DNA of 56,013 bases from Bacteroidota bacterium (lineage in GTDB: Bacteria > Bacteroidota > Bacteroidia > Bacteroidales > WCHB1-69), in assembly GCA_029570835.1 (NCBI GenBank), contig JAKPTX010000041.1:1-56013 (forward strand), in the 5' to 3' direction. This document shows, in pieces, positions 1,291 through 30,062 of this stretch. A program made the position numbers and the translations under genes. The notes under the pieces were generated by a model, which worked only from the letters and a program-made list of their open reading frames with translations, ran no database searches and was not told where the DNA came from. How positions within the stretch are numbered: position 1 is the first letter of the stretch; each line of letters starts with the position of its first letter.

Positions 1291-1293
1291 CGA

Positions 1294-1317
1294 TTTCGGA
1301 TTTCGGATTTCGGATTT
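1294..1317. repeat. Heptamer tandem repeat ATTTCGG (about 3 units)
   Basis: Three units of ATTTCGG/TTCGGAT begin directly after the stop codon of the preceding gene. The same unit recurs at 11691, 17077 and 23894. Confidence 0.8.
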
Positions 1318-1488
1318 TGACTAGGATTATGATTTCAGGATATAACTTGCTGAAATTCAATTATTTCCAATTTTTTATTTCTTGTTTCTTATTTGGAATT
1401 TTAAATAAATGGGGGGCAGATCATATTTCGCTTTTTCGATATTTCTTTACCCCACTCTGGAATATTACACCTTTTAGGGAATTACACA
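1318..1488 (+). repeat. GGGGGCAG-N30-CCCCACTCTGG intergenic element, copy A (long form)
   Basis: The core is GGGGGCAG at 1412-1419, a 30-nt spacer, and CCCCACTCTGG at 1450-1460. Similarity to copy B (23926-24100) extends over roughly 170 bp on both sides, including TTTCTTATTTGG just before the G run and ACCTTTTAGG after the core. It has no convincing reading frame. It lies between two convergent genes. Confidence 0.75.
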
Positions 1489-1553
1489 AATTACGAATTA
1501 CGAATTACGATGAATCAATTCTAAATTCTGAATTCTAATTTCTAAATTTACTT
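1489..1553. repeat. Heptamer arrays AATTACG then AATTCTA-like
   Basis: About three AATTACG units (to ~1510) are followed by a degenerate period-7 run: AATTCTA, AATTCTG, AATTCTA, ATTTCTA. It ends only a few bases before the stop codon of the convergent minus-strand gene. Confidence 0.75.
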
Positions 1554-7500: not shown

Positions 7501-8739
7501 GAACTCTGGAAACCAATCTATAAAGCAGATGATGAAAAGATCTGGGGATTAAAAGAAGAATTGCGTAAAGAGTTGATGGACAACGTAAAAGAACTCTTAA
7601 CAAAACAGATGATCAATAGAAATGAGTCGCCATCCTTGATTCATAAAACAGTTACATCGCTGGATGATAAGACGTTAACCGTCGGATTTGCAAGACGATT
7701 TGCTACCTACAAAAGAGCACACTTGCTTATGATGAATGAACAAAGATTGGCTCAATTGGTGAATCATCCTGAATTTCCTATTCGCTTTATCTTTGCCGGG
7801 AAAGCGCACCCACACGACAAAGCAGGTCAAGATTTAATCAAGAGAATTATTGAGTTTTCCAGAAAAGAGGAGTTTATTGGAAAAATTATCTTTTTAGAGA
7901 ATTATGATATGATTCTGGCGAAAAAGTTAGTTTCCGGTTGTGATGTGTGGTTAAATAATCCGACAAGACCGCTAGAGGCTTCCGGTACCAGTGGAGAAAA
8001 AGCCGTGATGAACGGAGTGTTGAATTTTAGTGTTATGGATGGCTGGTGGGCGGAAGGTTACAAAGAGGGAGCAGGTTGGGCTATTGAAGAAAAAATCACA
8101 TACGAAAACAACCATCTTCAGGATGAGTTGGATGCCCATGTGCTCTATTCTATCTTCCAGGATCAGATTATACCTACTTTCTACTCACGTAACAATCAGG
8201 GAGTTTCTGAATGTTGGGTGAAAATGATGAAGGAGAACTTCTTCCAAATTGCGCCTCACTATACGATGAAACGTCAATTAGAGGATTACTACTTGAAGTT
8301 TTATAACAAACTGGAGGAAAGAACCAAAGCGTTACGTGCTAATCATGCAGAAAAGCTCAATCAACTCATCAGTTGGAAAGAGAGAGTGATTACAGAATGG
8401 GACAATATTGAGTTTGTGAACCAGGAGTTTGATAATCCAAATGATTTTCTATATTACATTGGAGAAGATGCGCAAATCAGTGTTCAGCTTCGTTTGGGTA
8501 TACTGCAACCTCAAGATGTCAAAATAGAGTTATGTATTTTATCTACGCTTGAAAATACCAATCAACTGTTTGCAAAGTATGAATTGGCTTATGATCATTC
8601 CGAAGATGGAGTACACACCTATAAGACAAAAATAACAGCCTCTTACTCAGGAAGTTGGAAAGTGGCATTGAGATTACAACCCAATCATCCTCTATTGCCG
8701 CATGACTTTGATTTTCACCTGGTTAAATGGCTTGACTAA
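4519..8739 (+). CDS. Glycogen synthase (GT3-like) fused to alpha-glucan phosphorylase (GT35)
   Basis: A 1406-residue two-enzyme protein. Residues 1 to ~555 resemble eukaryotic-type glycogen synthase: FETSWEVCNKVGGIYTVL at 9-26, and an EX7E pair, Glu432-Glu440, in SYYEPWGYTPLES. Residues ~560-660 are DUF3417-like (NLWWSWNIESRELFEE). The rest is an alpha-glucan phosphorylase of the short bacterial type, with the pyridoxal phosphate lysine at Lys1161 in EASGTSGEKAVMNG. The phosphorylase half would release glucose-1-phosphate; the synthase half would extend alpha-1,4-glucan. The frame is open from 4429, but the start at 4519 follows the stop of the upstream gene and gives the expected N-terminus. 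Fusions of this size are known in Bacteroidota. Confidence 0.88.
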   Translation: MKNKPNYLFETSWEVCNKVGGIYTVLSTKVSTAVEHFHDQYICIGPDLPRENNPDFVEDLNLFKRWKEEAIKEGLKIRIGRWNVPGNPVVFLVDFTPYFSKKDDIFTSFWLDFKLDSISGQWDYIEPALFGYGAGKVIESFYNYYCNAQDHILAHFHEWMTGTGILYLKKQTPQIGTIFTTHATALGRSIAGNLLPLYDNIEQYSPIDMARNFNIQSKFSLEYLSATESDVFTTVSEITNVECRHFFDKPVDVVTINGFDNSFVPEGEEYTQKRAAARAKILQIVSALTQQEISEDALLVINSGRYEFKNKGIDLFIDAVAQLQQANPKREVVACIAVPAGCRAPKLELLEGKQLSESVLHVSEYTTHYLANLNNDPIVNHLKKNELFNSADSKVKVLFVPVYLDGQDQIFNLNYYDFLIGFDLSVFPSYYEPWGYTPLESIAFGIPTVTTTLAGFGRWIKENFTQHQGVTVVERTDTNDTEVVNAIANTLLEYSSHTPKVQSYLKKEVQQIAQKALWKELYDNYLEAYDKAIQATTSRYELYYKKVSQINLFTEISQPHEPSWTHITVKSKLTPNLKPLEEISQNLWWSWNIESRELFEEIAGKELWDDCGENPISALQRLSYERIQQFDQNKAYLEKVQRVYRCFQDYIHTPRTRKEGKIAFFSMEFGISNELKIFSGGLGMLAGDYLKEASDSHVDMIGVGLLYRYGYFTQQIGHQGDQINLYPPQSYSKLPITPFRNEDESWKMLNIPLPGRTLYVRIWKAMVGRVPLYLMDTDFNDNIPEDRAITSSLYGGNLEIRLKQEILLGIGGVRFLREIGEDPVLYHMNEGHAAFLGIERLSAEMKYNYRTFKQALELVRASTLFTTHTPVPAGHDKFSEDMIRVYLSNYPQYLNISWEAFMGLGRVHVEDQNEKFSMSILACKLAQEINGVSRIHGRVSREMFANLYEGHYPNELHIGYVTNGVHYPTWTHKKWQHYHNQLFGKEFAENRANPELWKPIYKADDEKIWGLKEELRKELMDNVKELLTKQMINRNESPSLIHKTVTSLDDKTLTVGFARRFATYKRAHLLMMNEQRLAQLVNHPEFPIRFIFAGKAHPHDKAGQDLIKRIIEFSRKEEFIGKIIFLENYDMILAKKLVSGCDVWLNNPTRPLEASGTSGEKAVMNGVLNFSVMDGWWAEGYKEGAGWAIEEKITYENNHLQDELDAHVLYSIFQDQIIPTFYSRNNQGVSECWVKMMKENFFQIAPHYTMKRQLEDYYLKFYNKLEERTKALRANHAEKLNQLISWKERVITEWDNIEFVNQEFDNPNDFLYYIGEDAQISVQLRLGILQPQDVKIELCILSTLENTNQLFAKYELAYDHSEDGVHTYKTKITASYSGSWKVALRLQPNHPLLPHDFDFHLVKWLD

Positions 8740-8740
8740 A

Positions 8741-9892
8741 CTATTTGCATAGCGAAATATAGCAGAAAATAGGGTAGTGGTCTGAAATTTCAATCTCTGT
8801 GGATACGGTGTGTCCGAAAGATTTTAACTCTTTGGAGTGAAATATGTTATCGATTCTGAAATCCGGATAACTGGCATGATGAAAGGTTTTGCCACTTCCT
8901 TTTCCACTTTCACGGAAAGAGTCTTTGAGCTTATGACTGATCTTGTGATAGGAGTAAGATGCCGGTGGATCATTTAAATCACCGCATACAATCACTTTAT
9001 GAGGTGAAGCTTGAATATGTTTAGCCAGAACGATAGTTTGTTCTTCTCTTTTCAAAGCAGCAACCCGCATCTTGTTAAAAAGATTCATCGCCCTTTTGTT
9101 AATCTGTGAATCCTGGATATCATTCTCGAGAATCTGTCTACCGGTCTCATAATCAATAGGTTCCAGATAATTGGATGCCAGATGGATATTGTAATTTCGG
9201 ATGGTGTCTCCCTTGTATTTGAAATCGATGTAAATTCCCGCTATGCTTTGCGAATCAGGCATCCAAACAGGTCCTGAATCCACAATTCTATATTTGCAAA
9301 AGGTAGCATAGCCGTAAAATACTTGATGATTTCTATGATAAGGGAAGTTGGTGTAAAGATAGGGTTTATTTAGAATAGAATCGATCATCTCAGTGGTTGT
9401 AAAGTTCAATTTCCCGGTTTTATCATAAAAATACTCTTGAAAACAGAGAATATCGGGACTCGCTTCTTTAATGTATTGCAAGATCTCGCGCTTCCCCTTA
9501 TTTCGGGTCTCAGGATCTTCGGAATCGTACAATCCAAACAACTTGACGTTGTAGCTCATTACTGTAATACAGTTGCAACAAGATTCCGGTTTGGGTGCGG
9601 CATTCAATTGATAATATCGGTCTATATTGTTGATATTAAGCGTAATAGCAATTAAGGAGATGAGAGTAAAGGATCTTTTCAAAAATAACCATAATATGAT
9701 AAAAGCAAGGTTGGCAAGAATTAAATAGGTAAATCCTAAACCTGAAAAAGCAATCCAAATAGAAGTAGAGGGTTTAATCCATTGGGTTAGAAAAGTAAAA
9801 AGTAGTCCCAATGCAACTAATATATTGAGAATCAACAGAAAAACTTTCCCACTGACTTTAAAAAACAATCCTCTTCTATTTTTTTTTGCCAT
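8741..9892 (-). CDS. Membrane-anchored endonuclease/exonuclease/phosphatase (EEP) family protein
   Basis: A 383-residue protein. Three hydrophobic segments occupy residues ~12-95. The EEP fold follows: MSYNVKLFG (metal Asn), CFQEY (metal Glu), CGDLND (Asp/Asn) and a final EISDHYPIF (Asp-His). These match the catalytic set of DNase I/sphingomyelinase-like phosphodiesterases. The substrate is not known; a nucleic acid, inositol phosphate or phospholipid headgroup is possible. It starts 2 nt after the upstream rhomboid gene and is the last gene of a minus-strand operon with two rhomboids. Its stop lies next to the convergent glycogen gene. Confidence 0.85.
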   Translation of the reverse strand: MAKKNRRGLFFKVSGKVFLLILNILVALGLLFTFLTQWIKPSTSIWIAFSGLGFTYLILANLAFIILWLFLKRSFTLISLIAITLNINNIDRYYQLNAAPKPESCCNCITVMSYNVKLFGLYDSEDPETRNKGKREILQYIKEASPDILCFQEYFYDKTGKLNFTTTEMIDSILNKPYLYTNFPYHRNHQVFYGYATFCKYRIVDSGPVWMPDSQSIAGIYIDFKYKGDTIRNYNIHLASNYLEPIDYETGRQILENDIQDSQINKRAMNLFNKMRVAALKREEQTIVLAKHIQASPHKVIVCGDLNDPPASYSYHKISHKLKDSFRESGKGSGKTFHHASYPDFRIDNIFHSKELKSFGHTVSTEIEISDHYPIFCYISLCK

Positions 9893-11690: not shown

Positions 11691-11719
11691 ATTTCGGATT
11701 TCGGATTTCGGATTTCGGA
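11691..11719. repeat. Heptamer tandem repeat ATTTCGG (4 units)
   Basis: Four near-perfect ATTTCGG units lie directly upstream of the rhomboid promoter. This begins a 380-bp gene-free island (11654-12033) that contains only repeats and palindromes. Confidence 0.8.
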
Positions 11720-14410: not shown

Positions 14411-14450
14411 TGTTTACTATTTTTACTCACATTACTCATTGTTACTCACC

Positions 14451-17072
14451 ATGAAGAACGCTTTATTTTTTTGGATCACTCTGATCTTTTTCGCGATTAA
14501 TTCCTTTACGGGAACTCTTTTTAACCCCCTTTTTTCACAAATTACCGATTCCTTTACAGATGGGGATTTTTCCCACAATCCGACATGGATAGGGGATACT
14601 CTAAATTTTAAAGTTAACTCAACTTTCCAGTTGCAATTGGATGCTCCGGCTGCCGGTAAGTCCTATTTGATGGTTCCGACAACCTTTTCTGCTGAGCAGA
14701 TGGAGTGGCAGATGAGCATCAAGTGTACTTTTTCTCCATCGGGGAACAATTTTACGCGGTTTTATCTGATTTCAGCGCAGCAAAACCTAAAAGATCCCAA
14801 TAATCAGGCGATTTTTCTGCAATTGGGTGAAAATTTGTCTCAGGATGCGCTGGAGCTTTTTTATCAGGAGGGAACGACGCTTACCACTATCTGTCGTGGA
14901 AAAGCAGCAACTATAGCTAAACCGTTTGATATCCGCGTTAAAGTGCGCTACACGGCGCCCGGTTTGTGGGAGCTTTTTCTGGACTCTCTGAAAACGGGTC
15001 AGTTTTACCAGGATGCTTCTGCGATGTTTGTGCAATTGCCTCAGCAACAGGGTTTTGGAGTTTCTACAACCTATACCGGCTCCAATATCCGCAATTTCTA
15101 TTTTGACGATTTCTACTTCGGTCCTCACTATATCGACACGGTTCCTCCGGAAGTGACGCAGTTGATACCACATTCTCATGGGCGTAGTATCGAGATTTGC
15201 TTTTCGGAACCGATTAATCCTTTGAGTGCACTTCAGCCTTCCCCTTATTTAATTGATGATTCTTTTTTTCCTGATACTATAAATATTTGGGGGGCAGATC
15301 GCGATCGGGTCCTCTTGAATTTTATCGCCCCACTCGCAATCGGTGAACACTCCATTGCCATTTCGGGGATCAGAGATGATGCGGATAACCTCTCCTCTCC
15401 CTTTTTTTCTTATTTTCAGATCAAGAGAGTGCAAAGAAATGAACTGCTCATCACCGAGATTATGGCAGATCCGACACCTCAAGTGGAACTGCCTGCTGTT
15501 GAGTACGTTGAGTTGTACAATCCTTCGCAATGGGATACTGTGCAACTGAATAACTGGAGTTTGCGACTGGGCAGCTCTATCAAAAAGATAACCTCAATGC
15601 TCTTGCCTCCACAAACTTATGGATTGATCATTCCTCAATCGGAAATTCTGCTCTTTGAACCCTTTTGTGATCTGATATATGGTGTTTCCTCTTTGGGAAT
15701 TACCAATGGCGGACAAGAGGTTACGCTTTTAAATGAGGAAAATGAAGTGATCCATGTTGTTGATTTTAAGGTAGATTGGCACAGTAACCTCTTCAAACGC
15801 GATGGAGGCTGGTCGCTGGAGATGATCGATTTGGAGAATCCTTGCAGTGAGGAATCCAACTGGGATTCTTCGGAAGACCCATCGGGAGGAACTCCCGGGA
15901 GAGCCAATTCGATTGCAGGAGCCAATCCTGATAGTGAACTTCCTTACTTAGAGAAGGTTACCTATCTTGACTCCACGCAGATCATATTACATTTTAATGA
16001 AACAATTCTGATGCAACCCGATCTCATCCCGATTCGGATTGTTCCGGAAATCCCAATTGTGAGCGTTACACTTGTACAACCGCAACAAAAACAGATTCGG
16101 GTGCAATTGGGTACACCTTTGACTAAAAAGCAAGTTTACAGGGTGATTATCAGCGACACTATCTACGATTGTGTTGGGAATCAGGTTGTCATTGAGAGCG
16201 AGGGCAGGGTAGGAGTGCCCGAAAAAGTGAACTATTTTGATCTGATAATCAATGAGATACTGACCGACTCCTACCAAAGTACGGTTGCAGATTTCGTTGA
16301 AATAGTGAATCGTTCCGACAAAATTATAGATTTGGGCAAAATCTATATCGGAGATGGCACGCTTGAAAAACCGGAGCGTCTCGTTCCGATGGTCAGATCA
16401 GGCTATCTGCTTTTCCCTCAGGAATATATCGCAATTTGCAAAAATCGAAAATTAACCCTGGAGCAGTATAATCCGATCTATCCGGAACGGCTGGTACAGA
16501 ATGACTCGCTGCCCAACTTCCCCAATAGTGAAAGTGTGATCTATATCACCGACTGGGCTTATCAAGTTGTTGATTGGTTGCATTATACGGCTGATTTCCA
16601 CTCTTCTTTTCTCAGCAGTACCGATGGTGTTTCATTGGAAAAGATTGCTATTGATCTGCCAACTCAAAACCGGAATCATTGGAAATCAGCCGCTCAGACA
16701 GCCGGTTTTGGCACTCCGGGATATCTTAACTCACAAACGACTCAAATTCTCCCTGAAAAGTCAAAATTAGGGATTGATCCTCCCGTTTTTTCTCCCAATG
16801 GAGACGGATATCAGGATTTTGTGATGATTAGTTACCAAAGTACAACTTCAGAAGGACGAATTTCAATCTATATTTACGATAAAGAGGGAATGTTAATCAA
16901 ATTGTTGGTCAACAATGAGATAATCACTCCCAACACCATTTACACGTGGGACGGCTCCACTTTAGACGGCACCATTGCCCCCACCGGAATCTATCTTATC
17001 CGCGCCGAATACTGGGATTTGGAAGGCAAACGGGAATGGGAAAAAGGAGTGGTAACATTGTATAGAGAATAG
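14451..17072 (+). CDS. Large exported protein with lamin-tail domains and a FlgD-like C-terminal Ig domain
   Basis: An 873-residue protein starting at the ATG at 14451 (the frame is open from a TTG at 14439). A signal peptide covers residues 1-~22 (MKNALFFWITLIFFAINS). Two lamin-tail-like regions are visible: one with LLITEIMADPTPQ...EYVELYNPS and one with LIINEILTDSYQSTVADFVEIVN. Ig-like segments with DRVLLNF and GNQVVIES type strands flank them. The C-terminus (FSPNGDGYQDF, then TYTWDGSTLDGTIAPTGIYLIRAEY) resembles the FlgD-type Ig domain. The protein is probably surface or periplasmic. Bases 15289-15335 match the core geometry of the intergenic GGGGGCAG element. Confidence 0.82.
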   Translation: MKNALFFWITLIFFAINSFTGTLFNPLFSQITDSFTDGDFSHNPTWIGDTLNFKVNSTFQLQLDAPAAGKSYLMVPTTFSAEQMEWQMSIKCTFSPSGNNFTRFYLISAQQNLKDPNNQAIFLQLGENLSQDALELFYQEGTTLTTICRGKAATIAKPFDIRVKVRYTAPGLWELFLDSLKTGQFYQDASAMFVQLPQQQGFGVSTTYTGSNIRNFYFDDFYFGPHYIDTVPPEVTQLIPHSHGRSIEICFSEPINPLSALQPSPYLIDDSFFPDTINIWGADRDRVLLNFIAPLAIGEHSIAISGIRDDADNLSSPFFSYFQIKRVQRNELLITEIMADPTPQVELPAVEYVELYNPSQWDTVQLNNWSLRLGSSIKKITSMLLPPQTYGLIIPQSEILLFEPFCDLIYGVSSLGITNGGQEVTLLNEENEVIHVVDFKVDWHSNLFKRDGGWSLEMIDLENPCSEESNWDSSEDPSGGTPGRANSIAGANPDSELPYLEKVTYLDSTQIILHFNETILMQPDLIPIRIVPEIPIVSVTLVQPQQKQIRVQLGTPLTKKQVYRVIISDTIYDCVGNQVVIESEGRVGVPEKVNYFDLIINEILTDSYQSTVADFVEIVNRSDKIIDLGKIYIGDGTLEKPERLVPMVRSGYLLFPQEYIAICKNRKLTLEQYNPIYPERLVQNDSLPNFPNSESVIYITDWAYQVVDWLHYTADFHSSFLSSTDGVSLEKIAIDLPTQNRNHWKSAAQTAGFGTPGYLNSQTTQILPEKSKLGIDPPVFSPNGDGYQDFVMISYQSTTSEGRISIYIYDKEGMLIKLLVNNEIITPNTIYTWDGSTLDGTIAPTGIYLIRAEYWDLEGKREWEKGVVTLYRE
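15289..15335 (+). repeat. Intragenic match to the GGGGGCAG-N30-CCCC core
   Basis: GGGGGCAG (15290-15297), exactly 30 nt, then CCCCACTC (15328-15335), inside the lamin-tail gene and in frame with normal-looking protein sequence. The TGG end of the CCCCACTCTGG box is not kept. This could be coincidence or a captured copy. Confidence 0.4.
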
Positions 17073-17076
17073 TATT

Positions 17077-17185
17077 ATTTCGGATTTCGGATTTCGGATT
17101 TCGGATTTCGGATTTCGGAATGATTCAATTACGAATTACGAATTACGGGTTTTACAAGGTAGAAGGTAGAGGGTAGAAGGTAGAA
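17077..17185. repeat. Heptamer arrays ATTTCGG, AATTACG and GGTAGAA
   Basis: Six ATTTCGG units (17077-17119), three AATTACG units (17127-17147) and four GGTAGAA/GGTAGAG units (17158-17185) follow one another downstream of the lamin-tail gene. All have period 7. The gene-free stretch 17073-17452 holds only these arrays, the next array and element copy E. Confidence 0.82.
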
Positions 17186-17342: not shown

Positions 17343-17440
17343 TTATTCCAGAGTGGGGAAGTGAAATAACAAAAAAGGGAGATCCGTTCTGCCCCCATAT
17401 TTTTTTATTTCAAAATAAAGAAAAAAATAGAAAATAAAGG
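17343..17440 (-). repeat. GGGGGCAG-N30-CCCCACTCTGG intergenic element, copy E
   Basis: Minus orientation: CCAGAGTGGGG at 17348-17358, a 30-nt spacer, CTGCCCCC at 17389-17396. The flank reads (reverse complement) TTTATTTTGAAATAAA, as in the other copies. It lies between convergent genes. Confidence 0.72.
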
Positions 17441-23893: not shown

Positions 23894-23921
23894 ATTTCGG
23901 ATTTCGGATTTCGGATTTCGG
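23894..23921. repeat. Heptamer tandem repeat ATTTCGG (4 units)
   Basis: Four units open the 386-bp gene-free island 23789-24174. They are followed by element copy B, in the same order as at 1294-1512. Confidence 0.8.
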
Positions 23922-23925
23922 AAGT

Positions 23926-24100
23926 TGACTAAGATTTATAATTATAGGATATATCTTTCTAAAATTCAATCATTTACAATTTCATATTTCTGATTTCTTA
24001 TTTGGTATTTTAAATAATTGGGGGGCAGGATTTGAGGTGTCTCTTTTGATATTCCATCACCCCACTCTGGAATGTTTGACCTTTTTGAACATGTGTAATC
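23926..24100 (+). repeat. GGGGGCAG-N31-CCCCACTCTGG intergenic element, copy B (long form)
   Basis: GGGGGCAG at 24021-24028, a 31-nt spacer, and CCCCACTCTGG at 24060-24070. Alignment to copy A by eye continues from GACTA near the left end (AGGATATA, AAATTCAAT, TTTCTTATTTGG) to the ACCTTTT block on the right, while the spacer itself differs. It is downstream of gap. Confidence 0.75.
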
Positions 24101-24174
24101 AATTACGAATTACGAATTACGAATTACGAATTACGTTTTAATTTATTCCGAAATCCGAAATCCGAAATCCGAAA
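24101..24174. repeat. Heptamer arrays AATTACG (5 units) and TCCGAAA (4 units)
   Basis: AATTACG x5 at 24101-24135 and TCCGAAA x4 from 24147 to the stop codon of gap. The second array is the reverse complement of the ATTTCGG type, so the island is framed by the same unit in opposite orientations. Confidence 0.8.
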
Positions 24175-25197
24175 TCAATTCTGTTTATTTGCAACAATGT
24201 TATCCCAATTGTTAATCAGGTCCACAATGCGGTTGGAGTATCCACTTTCATTGTCGTACCATGCCAAAATCTGGATAAACCGATTGCCGAGCACACGGGT
24301 TGAAAGGGCGTCAAAAATGGCTGAGTGCCGATTTCCTTTGATATCGCTACTTACAATGGGGTCTTCAGTATAGTCCAAATAAGGTTTTAAACTTCCTTCA
24401 GAAGCCTCTTTAAATGCCTGATTAATCGATTTTACAGTGCAATCCGATTGCAAAATGGCTGTTAACTCAACAAAAGAGCAATCTGAAACCGGTACACGGG
24501 TTGCAAAACCGTCAAAACGACCATTTAGATCCGGAATAATCTGCTGAATTGCTCTAATAGCACTGGTCGTTGTCGGGATAATATTGTCCACAATTCCACG
24601 CGCCCTGCGAAAATCAGGGTGATAGCCATCCTGAATGTTTTGATTGTTGGTCATCGGGTGAACGGTGTTCATAAATGCTTTTTCGACCCCAAATTTTTGA
24701 ATCAGAGCGGTTAAAACAATTCCCACACAATTGGTTGTACAGGAAGCATTTGATATCAGATAATCACTTTCCTCCAATATATGCTCATTACATCCCAGTA
24801 CTATCATTTTATTGATAGAAGAATCTAAGGGGGGGGCACTTAATATCACCCTCTTAACATTACCTCTATAGTGGCGCTCCAACAATTCGCGTGTGCGGTA
24901 CTTTCCACTGGATTCAACCACCCACTCAACGCCACTGGTCTCCCAAGGGATTACAAAGTTGTTCATCTCATTGGTAACCATTATTTTATTTCCTTCGACA
25001 TAAACATATTGCTCATCAAAAGTAATTTTTTTGTCGAAAATACCGTGAATGGAGTCATATTTTAGCAGGTGGGCAATCATGTGAGGAGTCATTTTATCAT
25101 TGATATGAGCCAACTCCAGATTGCCGTTACTCAACAGTAAACGGGCTACATATTTTCCGATTCTTCCAAATCCGTTTATTCCAATTTTTGTTGCCAT
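24175..25197 (-). CDS. gap: Glyceraldehyde-3-phosphate dehydrogenase, type I, divergent
   Basis: A 340-residue NAD-binding dehydrogenase. The Rossmann motif INGFGRIGKYVARLL and Asp34 (HIND) point to NAD. The catalytic Cys153 is in SNASCTTNCVG and the catalytic His is His180. It departs from typical GAPDH at several conserved places: HPMTNNQ instead of HxYTxDQ, IIPTTTSAIRA instead of IIPxSTGAAKA, and SAPPLDSSI instead of SAPSKD-type. It may be a second, specialised GAPDH paralogue. It starts 19 nt after folD, at the end of the thrS-ffh-folD-gap run. A run of eight C (24829-24836 region) lies in frame. Confidence 0.85.
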   Translation of the reverse strand: MATKIGINGFGRIGKYVARLLLSNGNLELAHINDKMTPHMIAHLLKYDSIHGIFDKKITFDEQYVYVEGNKIMVTNEMNNFVIPWETSGVEWVVESSGKYRTRELLERHYRGNVKRVILSAPPLDSSINKMIVLGCNEHILEESDYLISNASCTTNCVGIVLTALIQKFGVEKAFMNTVHPMTNNQNIQDGYHPDFRRARGIVDNIIPTTTSAIRAIQQIIPDLNGRFDGFATRVPVSDCSFVELTAILQSDCTVKSINQAFKEASEGSLKPYLDYTEDPIVSSDIKGNRHSAIFDALSTRVLGNRFIQILAWYDNESGYSNRIVDLINNWDNIVANKQN

Positions 25198-25216
25198 TTC
25201 GGTTTTTTGCTAAGTT

Positions 25217-26170
25217 TTAGTGAGCACAATCACAGTGAGGATCGGAAATACAATCACAGCCGGTTTCGGCCATGGGGTAGGAGCGATCCTCAAAAATTTT
25301 ATAAGCTCTTAAAGTATTGAGTAGCAGACAGCTCATAGTTACTGATCCTACTCCTCCCGGAACGGGGGTAATGGCAGAAGTAAGCGGTGCTACTTCATTA
25401 TAATTCACATCCCCACAGATGCGATATCCTTTGGTTGCTGTTTCATCTTTCACCCGATGGATTCCCACATCAATCACTACAGCTCCCTCTTTAACATACT
25501 CTTTTCCAATCATTTCGGGTTTTCCCATAGCAACCAATAAAATATCTGCTTCGCGAGCGATTTCAGGTAAATTCTGCGTTTTACTGTGTGCCAGCGTTAC
25601 GGTAGCATTAGCATCATCTTTATTCTGAGCCAATAGTAATGCCAGCGGTTTCCCTACAATATTACTTCTACCGATTACCACCGCTTTTTTACCTATTGTA
25701 TCGATTTTTGAACGTTTCAAAATCTCCATACAAGCCATCGGTGTTGCCGGAGAGAAATTATTTTTTCCTAAAACCAGATTACCCATATTGATTGGGTTAA
25801 AACAATCTATATCTTTTTCAGGATCAACACGTTGTGCTACCTCTTCAGTGGAAATGTGCTGGGGTAACGGCAGTTGGATAATATAGCCATCCACCTCCGG
25901 ATCTTGATTTAAGAAGTCAATTGACTCAAAGAGTTCCTCTTGAGTAATTGTGGAAGGGTAGTGGTACACGGACGAGGTGATTCCCACCTCTTGAGATTTT
26001 TTCTGTATGCTTTCAACATACGTTTTTGATGCGCCATCATCACCTACAAAGATCACTGCTAAATGGGGTGCCCTTTTCCCTGCATCAATCAACTTTTCAA
26101 CTTTTTCAGCTATCTCTTTGTAGATATCTTTAGCGATCTGTTTTCCGTCTAAAATCTGTGGTTTACTCAT
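25217..26170 (-). CDS. folD: FolD-type methylene-THF dehydrogenase/cyclohydrolase with altered active site and Cys-rich tail
   Basis: A 317-residue protein, about 25 residues longer than usual FolD. The fold is clear: YIIQLPLPQHI (Gln99), GRSNIVGKPLALLL, and TPVPGGVGS. However, the residue aligned with the catalytic Lys56 of the human enzyme is Ile55 (TYVESIQKKSQEVGI; normally YVxxK). The usual KDVDGFHP is KDIDCFNP, and GGVGP is GGVGS. The last 13 residues contain CDC, H, CDC and H (4 Cys, 2 His), a possible metal site. Dehydrogenase activity is plausible; cyclohydrolase activity is doubtful. It lies between ffh and gap. Confidence 0.85.
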   Translation of the reverse strand: MSKPQILDGKQIAKDIYKEIAEKVEKLIDAGKRAPHLAVIFVGDDGASKTYVESIQKKSQEVGITSSVYHYPSTITQEELFESIDFLNQDPEVDGYIIQLPLPQHISTEEVAQRVDPEKDIDCFNPINMGNLVLGKNNFSPATPMACMEILKRSKIDTIGKKAVVIGRSNIVGKPLALLLAQNKDDANATVTLAHSKTQNLPEIAREADILLVAMGKPEMIGKEYVKEGAVVIDVGIHRVKDETATKGYRICGDVNYNEVAPLTSAITPVPGGVGSVTMSCLLLNTLRAYKIFEDRSYPMAETGCDCISDPHCDCAH

Positions 26171-29639: not shown

Positions 29640-29740
29640 TCTAATTTCTGTTTTTATTTTGAAAAAGAAAAAAAAGGGGGCAGCATGGTTTTCCCATTTC
29701 TATTATTTTATTTCCCCACTCTGGAATGTTAACCTTTTAG
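29640..29740 (+). repeat. GGGGGCAG-N30-CCCCACTCTGG intergenic element, copy C
   Basis: GGGGGCAG at 29676-29683, a 30-nt spacer, CCCCACTCTGG at 29714-29724, then the ACCTTTTAGG block. The left flank is a degenerate TTTTATTTTGAAAAAG. Confidence 0.73.
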
Positions 29741-29753
29741 GATATGCAGGATT

Positions 29754-29771
29754 AATTACGAATTACGAATT
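29754..29771. repeat. Heptamer repeat AATTACG (2.5 units)
   Basis: It follows the right end of element copy C, as in copies A and B. Confidence 0.7.
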
Positions 29772-29772
29772 A

Positions 29773-29802
29773 GACCTCCCCTAGCCCCTCCAAAGGAGGG
29801 GG
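29773..29802. repeat. Half copy of the GACCTCCCC compound repeat
   Basis: GACCTCCCCTAG followed by the hairpin CCCCTCC-AAA-GGAGGGG. It corresponds to one arm of the element at 11875-11981. Confidence 0.6.
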
Positions 29803-29833
29803 ACAATCAATGAAAAAAGAACATGGTCGTAGA

Positions 29834-29851
29834 GACAGGGCATGCCCTGTC
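29834..29851. repeat. Perfect palindrome GACAGGGCATGCCCTGTC
   Basis: An 18-bp perfect dyad preceded by GTAGA, of the kind dispersed between genes in several Bacteroidota and cyanobacteria. Confidence 0.6.
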
Positions 29852-29947
29852 CCCATGATGTAATTATGCGATACCATTTATATTTATAGTAAACATTTGA
29901 TAATCAAGAAATTATAAATCATAAAATTAGATTAACCGCAATTGTAG

Positions 29948-29968
29948 GGGCAGGGCTTGTCCCTGCCC
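29948..29968. repeat. Hairpin GGGCAGGG-N5-CCCTGCCC
   Basis: A perfect 8-bp stem with a 5-nt loop (CTTGT), preceded by GTAG. It abuts element copy D, whose core begins 5 nt later. Confidence 0.6.
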
Positions 29969-30062
29969 TTTTCCAGAGTGGGGAAATAAAACAACCTAAG
30001 AGAAATACCTATCCTGCCCCCTAATTTATTTTATTTCCAAAAAGAAGAAAAATAGAAATATA
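29969..30062 (-). repeat. GGGGGCAG-N30-CCCCACTCTGG intergenic element, copy D
   Basis: Minus orientation: CCAGAGTGGGG at 29973-29983, a 30-nt spacer, CTGCCCCC at 30014-30021, then the reverse complement of TTTTTGGAAATAAAATAAAT. It faces copy C across about 250 bp. Its right flank is replaced by the hairpin at 29948. Confidence 0.73.

Follow-up and report, generated by a model that had tools for sequence, protein, structure and literature searches.

A genus-restricted family of dispersed intergenic repeats with tightly spaced boxes, possibly of mosaic origin, in Bacteroidales

The window analyzed here (the whole stretch of 56,013 nucleotides, contig C55) belongs to the 2.92-Mb draft genome of a Bacteroidota bacterium assembled in 277 contigs (G000). 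Five copies of a short element lie in it, each consisting of two boxes with a spacer between them. A pattern search recovered these copies at the positions and on the strands given in a preliminary description, which had been made from the letters of the window, with spacers of 30, 30, 31, 30, and 30 nt. The features are as follows.

1292-1317, plus strand: ATTTCGG heptamer array, outer left of the copy-1 unit
1389-1408, plus strand: AT-only inverted repeat TTATTT-N8-AAATAA upstream of box 1, the left-flank module of copy 1
1412-1460, plus strand: copy 1, with box 1 (GGGGGCAG) at 1412-1419, a 30-nt spacer at 1420-1449, and box 2 (CCCCACTCTGG) at 1450-1460
1489-1510, plus strand: AATTACG heptamer array, right flank of copy 1
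8739-8741, no strand: empty site, two convergent open reading frames (ORFs) with 1 bp between their stops
17348-17396, minus strand: copy 2, with box 2 at 17348-17358, spacer at 17359-17388, and box 1 at 17389-17396
24021-24070, plus strand: copy 3, with box 1 at 24021-24028, a 31-nt spacer at 24029-24059, and box 2 at 24060-24070
29676-29724, plus strand: copy 4, with box 1 at 29676-29683, spacer at 29684-29713, and box 2 at 29714-29724
29973-30021, minus strand: copy 5, with box 2 at 29973-29983, spacer at 29984-30013, and box 1 at 30014-30021

Copies 4 and 5 form a convergent pair. The left module of copy 1, the AT inverted repeat, was found again in other copies, and the alignment of copies 1 and 3, first put at about 170 bp, extends over 224 columns with 80% identity.

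The anatomy of the core was derived from 182 collected copies, which come from the source genome and from a relative of the same genus, Bacteroidales bacterium UBA5429 (G096; its contig C15 is record DIRT01000029.1), together with one copy from L132, two from L160, one from L168, and the intragenic match of G096. With spacings of 27-34 nt allowed, 129 copies had 30 nt between the boxes, 37 had 31, 13 had 29, and three had 32, so that 166 of the 182 fall at 30-31. Free variation of the spacing elsewhere had been named beforehand as a result that would speak against the element; all 182 copies lie within 29-32 nt. The 30-31 bp spacing would fit two protein sites on one helix face, as had been proposed.

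Box 2 proper is CCCCACTC, followed by a variable tail (TGGAA, GGNAA, CCA, and similar). TCTGG, previously taken as an invariant part of box 2, is present in 142 of the 182 copies, a set enriched for it because most loci were retrieved using TCTGG; the others mostly have CCCCACTCGGNAA, CCCCACTCTCC, or CCCCACTCGC. Nor does the view of the spacer as free and unconserved hold. The 30-nt spacer has a consensus, with C at position 12 in 96% of copies, G at 19 in 90%, A and T at 22 and 23 in 92%, and T at 28 in 91%. Scored against a profile derived from these very copies, the 182 spacers had a mean of +22.3 versus -24.6 for shuffled letters of the same spacers. Copy 1 scores 26.5. A score of 8 is reached by 153 of the 182 copies and by none of 41 box matches in viral contigs, whose scores are at chance level. 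At the same time the 182 copies carry 175 distinct spacers.

Several candidates were rejected. A box-1/box-2 match with spacing 30 at 15290-15335, inside the gene 14439-17072 and kept in G096, has a spacer score of -11.2, and G096:C19:68562 (-11.7) and G096:C25:139 (-21.1) likewise have spacers near chance (95th percentile of shuffled spacers, -8.6). We do not count these three as members of the family, and they are still contained in the raw counts of the relaxed pattern given below. The site G096:C19:68562 and its G000 counterpart near C40:122570 carry GTGGGG (GCGGGG in G000) and CTGCCCCCC followed by a long T run; it looks both terminator-like and core-like, with an atypical spacer. A coding element, suggested by an ATG ahead of box 1 and by the open frame of copy 1, was rejected from the sequence because the frame is lost at spacings of 29, 31, and 32 and an ATG is absent from many copies. 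Rejected as well was the spacer as a guide to its own locus: in 24 tests on 145 of the 182 copies, sharing of k-mers with the own flanks did not exceed that with permuted loci, the permutation fraction being 0.09 at the lowest.

Upstream of the core lies an AT inverted repeat of two main types, TTATTTGGTATTTTAAATAA and TTTTTGAAATAAAAATAA. On the downstream side the core is followed by an AT-rich stretch or is adjoined at once by a palindrome, for example GGGCAGGGACAAGCCCTGCCC. The units are surrounded by tandem heptamers. We counted 408 arrays of period 7 in the flanks and 276 of period 14, the double of 7, versus 23 at most for any other period from 4 to 15. Nearly all heptamer units read GAANNNN on one strand, and arrays of the GAATTAC pattern were detected in 10 of 103 family genomes.

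In the window itself, heptamer arrays were seen at 1292-1317, 1489-1510, 11691-11719, 17077-17119, 23894-23922, 24101-24135, 24147-24176, and 29754-29772, and the intergenic types were GAATTAC, GAAATCC, GAAGGCG, GAATTTA, GAAAGTC, and GAAGGTA. Palindromes of the families GGGCAGGGACAAGCCCTGCCC, GAGACGCAACGCATTGCGTCTC, and GGACAGGTCGCGACCTGTCC adjoin the core as separate modules (window, about 29790-29970; L006 and L007).

Placement relative to genes was judged from ORFs defined simply as the longest frames, and it covers copies flanked by an ORF on either side in the stretch retrieved. This was the case for 144 copies, of which 140 are outside any ORF of 100 aa or more. The statement that all copies sit near gene 3′ ends is right to the extent that 126 of these 140 have at least one adjacent 3′ end, yet so do 104 of 121 ordinary neighboring gene pairs from the window and the G096 stretch (p 0.34). 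Convergent gaps hold 46 of the 140 copies versus 17 of the 121 gene pairs (p 0.0005), and divergent gaps hold 14 versus 17. When only gaps of at least 150 bp serve for comparison, the convergent excess is gone (46/140 versus 6/25, p 0.49), and divergent gaps are rarer for copies (14/140 versus 7/25, p 0.02). Cores at most 1.2 kb apart are themselves convergent in 21 of 22 pairs (p 4e-12 against 1/4), at least three of the 21 being orthologous repeats of others, so that the true number is smaller. A unit with inverted ends accounts better for this rule than conversion would on its own.

How far does the element extend beyond the five copies? The exact pattern has 70 copies in the 2.92-Mb genome and none in the reversed-pattern control. 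With one G removed from box 1, we found 70 in G000, 71 in G096, and none in the remaining 102 of the 104 family genomes. The relaxed pattern GGGGGCAG-N27-34-CCCCAC, searched in five genomes, gave 126 matches in G000, 156 in G096, one in G001 (another genus), and none in G097 or G002, with reversed controls at zero. Restriction of the genome to the five copies had been named beforehand as a refuting result; the search of the genome and its relatives that had been proposed as a check returned far more (70 exact, 126 relaxed). G097, which is without the element, is assigned to the same genus and is 65% complete. A sequence model search of 103 genomes, with 39 candidates scored per genome, was positive in the same three (G000, G096, and G001).

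The copy in G001 has a spacer score of 19.9 and lies about 600 bp from GAATTAC array matches, on the contig that holds both such matches of this genome, which suggests transfer or contamination; G001 also has a weaker sequence-model match of 30.6 bits. Among the matches listed, two metagenome-assembled genomes labeled as other phyla, L132 and L160 (Gastranaerophilales and Bacillota), contain copies. Long stretches of L160 match this genus at 95-97% identity, and its copies are probably a case of bin contamination; L132 had no match over 400 bp in the same test. At gathering scores, Rfam matched nothing in the window. Identity with the end of a known insertion sequence, the last of the refuting results named beforehand, was not seen in the genomes compared, and searches of open-licence literature, including a text search for the box strings, listed no description of the element. 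The element is a genus-restricted dispersed intergenic family with tight box spacing.

Syntenic blocks of G000 and G096 are mostly 87-97% identical. The element is present in both species at 22 orthologous sites: 15 intergenic pairs (a first set of 16 from which the intragenic match was dropped) and 10 hand-picked from a contig comparison table, three being in common. The 15 pairs were taken from G096 loci chosen for holding the core and so give no evidence on conserved occupancy. The spacer was kept at nine of the 22 sites, intermediate at three, and replaced at 10, replaced spacers having the identity level of unrelated copies (random pairs: mean 0.60, 95th percentile 0.80). Nineteen of the 22 pairs could be scored as kept or replaced, with cut-offs set by us, in each of the three parts (left flank, spacer, right flank); of the eight possible combinations, seven occur. 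The three parts change separately, with junctions at the boxes.

The window copies illustrate this. Copy 3 and its G096 ortholog have an identical core and spacer, and both flanks differ; copy 4 kept the left flank and its spacer was replaced; copy 5 has a spacer 0.97 identical and a replaced left flank; and the G096 gap corresponding to copy 2 holds a copy in the same orientation with spacer identity 0.80. Clean cassette swaps were found in L026/L129 (flank segments 0.92-0.96, spacer 0.63) and in G000:C40:62352/G096:C19:10077 (flank segments 0.83-0.96, spacer 0.68). At G000:C40:130022 the spacer differs in its right part only, at C40:106702 the G096 gap measures about 3.3 kb, and at L055 a third record, L160, has yet another spacer at the same site.

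On contigs compared whole or nearly whole, 10 intergenic G000 copies are flanked by synteny on either side, and each of them corresponds to a G096 copy that has the same orientation and both boxes intact; these contigs were picked for some already known shared cores, so that this occupancy is less biased rather than unbiased. Copies with one-sided synteny were left out (window 1412; C40 605, 7138, 10469, and 176853). On the compared contigs, G000 lacks the G096 copy at C19:13942 and a G096 pair at position 8740 of the window. At this latter, empty site, G096 has about 520 bp with two convergent cores and inverted ATTTCGG arrays at the bounds. Elsewhere in the window, at the gap 25197-25217, G096 has about 515 bp more, in which a putative glutathione-peroxidase-like gene was recognized by eye.

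Similarity between copies of one genome was also evaluated part by part. In G000 (75 copies) the parts of the left flank go together (r 0.13-0.15), as do the two ends of the spacer (S1-S3, r 0.15) and the parts of the right flank (D1-D2, r 0.39); neither box 1 (U1-S1, r -0.02) nor box 2 (S3-D1, r -0.03) is crossed by such a link. G096 (74 copies) has weak links across the boxes (U1-S1, r 0.06; S3-D1, r 0.10; U1-S2, r 0.12; S1-D1, r 0.10), each equaled in one to eight of 200 permutations. Both genomes have a link between left and right flank (U2-D1, r about 0.1), and in neither is there a link between S2 and S3, which adjoin each other in the spacer. The nearest paralog of a spacer, searched for 82 and 97 spacers as part of the 126 and 156, has a median identity of 0.83, and identity of at least 0.9 is reached by only 16 of 82 and 23 of 97. 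Close donors for the replaced spacers were thus mostly not found, which may reflect fast local mutation or mosaic conversion.

We give a probability of about one half to the following reading: the element is a genus-restricted mosaic intergenic repeat of BIME/BOX-like kind, with copies exchanging their interiors through recombination. It would consist of three exchangeable modules, namely the left flank with its AT inverted repeat, the 29-32-bp cassette between the constant boxes, and the right flank. Turnover would proceed by recombination among dispersed copies (ectopic gene conversion or template switching) over very short tracts, and the boxes would provide the shared homology. Their constancy might be due to homogenization, to a putative DNA-binding protein seeing both boxes about three helical turns apart, or to both. 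We regard the element as probably selfish or close to neutral, and as tolerated in intergenic DNA. Against this reading count the length of the boxes, since 8-11 bp is short for homologous recombination of the ordinary kind, the weak links across the boxes in G096, the U2-D1 link and the missing S2-S3 link in both genomes, and the scarcity of close donors. The boxes might instead be recognition sites of a dedicated, undescribed cassette-exchange enzyme that swaps or rewrites the 30-bp interior at more than 100 fixed addresses; that nearly every address has its own interior (175 distinct spacers in 182) can be cited for such an enzyme, which we nevertheless consider improbable.

Readings at the level of RNA fare worse. 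The preliminary description had suggested an RNA with GGGG:CCCC pairing and a CAG:CTG pseudoknot, and both pairings can indeed be written, with GGGG:CCCC present in 41 of 60 minimum-energy folds. However, the consensus fold of the core contains GGGG:CCCC only, no covariation was detected, the spacer ends have no complementarity beyond the subfamily signal, Rfam (see above) gave no match in the window, and in a 60-copy sample the core folds no better than its shuffles (mean z -0.06 on the plus strand, -0.33 on the box-2-side strand). The plus strand with flanks has a mean z of -0.71, with 27% of the 60 copies below -2, which we attribute to palindromes that some of the right flanks contain. A small RNA, structured or pseudoknotted, is accordingly very improbable. 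A transcription terminator or 3′-end RNA element read from the box-2 side, with GGGG:CCCC followed by a T-rich tract, is rated somewhat higher and is still quite doubtful: the T-rich tract does follow CTGCCCCC on that strand, and co-directional genes tend to read that sense (49 versus 31, p 0.057). But the loop would be at least 30 nt, the stem has no compensatory change, the median distances between the core and the presumed reading gene are 222 and 279 bp, and in core pairs the T tracts point outward, beyond the whole unit. Of the two marks of an intrinsic terminator, a stable GC hairpin and a U tract, the T tract is present and the hairpin is no more stable than shuffles.

The strongest competitor, tentative and on balance unlikely, is a MITE-like non-autonomous transposon, whose terminal inverted repeat would be left flank plus core, with ATTTCGG heptamers as bounds and a lost or remote transposase. 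The convergent orientation of 21 of 22 close pairs and the empty site, with its inverted ATTTCGG ends in G096, keep such an origin in play, and the homology of copies over 224 columns agrees with it. Against it, no target-site duplication is evident at this single empty site, all 10 two-sided syntenic G000 copies are common to G096, many units have a single core, and no transposase was recognized by eye in ORFs between cores 0.6-3 kb apart. Y1_Tnp (PF01797) has two matches in G000 and none in G096, which is 98% complete and has more copies of the element (156 pattern matches). Y1_Tnp and RVT_1 (PF00078), the two families searched as candidate mobilizers, were surveyed in 59 genomes, and neither tracks the element. 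Constant boxes, their spacing of 30-31 in most copies, and addresses common to both species would also suit a structural DNA site of a nucleoid or chromosome-organizing protein that spans both boxes and is selected at fixed addresses. The restriction to two genomes of one genus and a lone copy elsewhere, together with the absence from the incomplete G097 of the same genus (65%), makes this doubtful, and the protein is hypothetical.

The mosaic repeat that we favor resembles several known families. Like REP/BIME it is intergenic, has more than 100 copies, and forms module mosaics and inverted pairs, as far as the descriptions of those families go (PMC3733652, PMC2817692). REP/BIME are described as palindromes with GTAG and CGTC tags and a link to RAYT (PMC3733652), whereas the core here is non-palindromic and its consensus carries neither of the tags described there. 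A RAYT (Y1_Tnp) is lacking in G096, and palindromes here adjoin the core as separate modules.

Another comparison is offered by the BOX element, which is built as boxA-boxB-boxC. The BOX, RUP, and SPRITE elements of Streptococcus pneumoniae are likewise, in the description available, small interspersed repeats with extensive secondary structure, limited to close relatives and proposed to be parasitic and slow-moving (PMC3049150). Unlike BOX as so described, the core here has no stable RNA structure (z values and covariation as above). A short element with tandem repeats, in a host of the same phylum, is reportedly present in Porphyromonas gingivalis, a likeness by description alone. This one is characterized in its source as a MITE with an internal minisatellite (PMC4596501). 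The heptameric tandem repeats of Nostoc and Xanthomonas, in the part of their description considered here, share with our arrays the period of 7, the intergenic position, and a partly fixed unit, and they lie mostly between the same genes in related genomes with varying sequence (PMC4692102). Their units differ, however, being of the GGGAATC type (PMC4692102), and the GAANNNN arrays here are neighbors of the core, not the core itself.

New here are addresses common to two species at which the borders stay constant and the short interior between them is replaced as a block. The small intergenic repeats of bacteria have mostly been described as units copied whole. If confirmed in strains, the family would offer a natural assay of very short-tract recombination in bacteria, or a pointer to an undescribed exchange enzyme.
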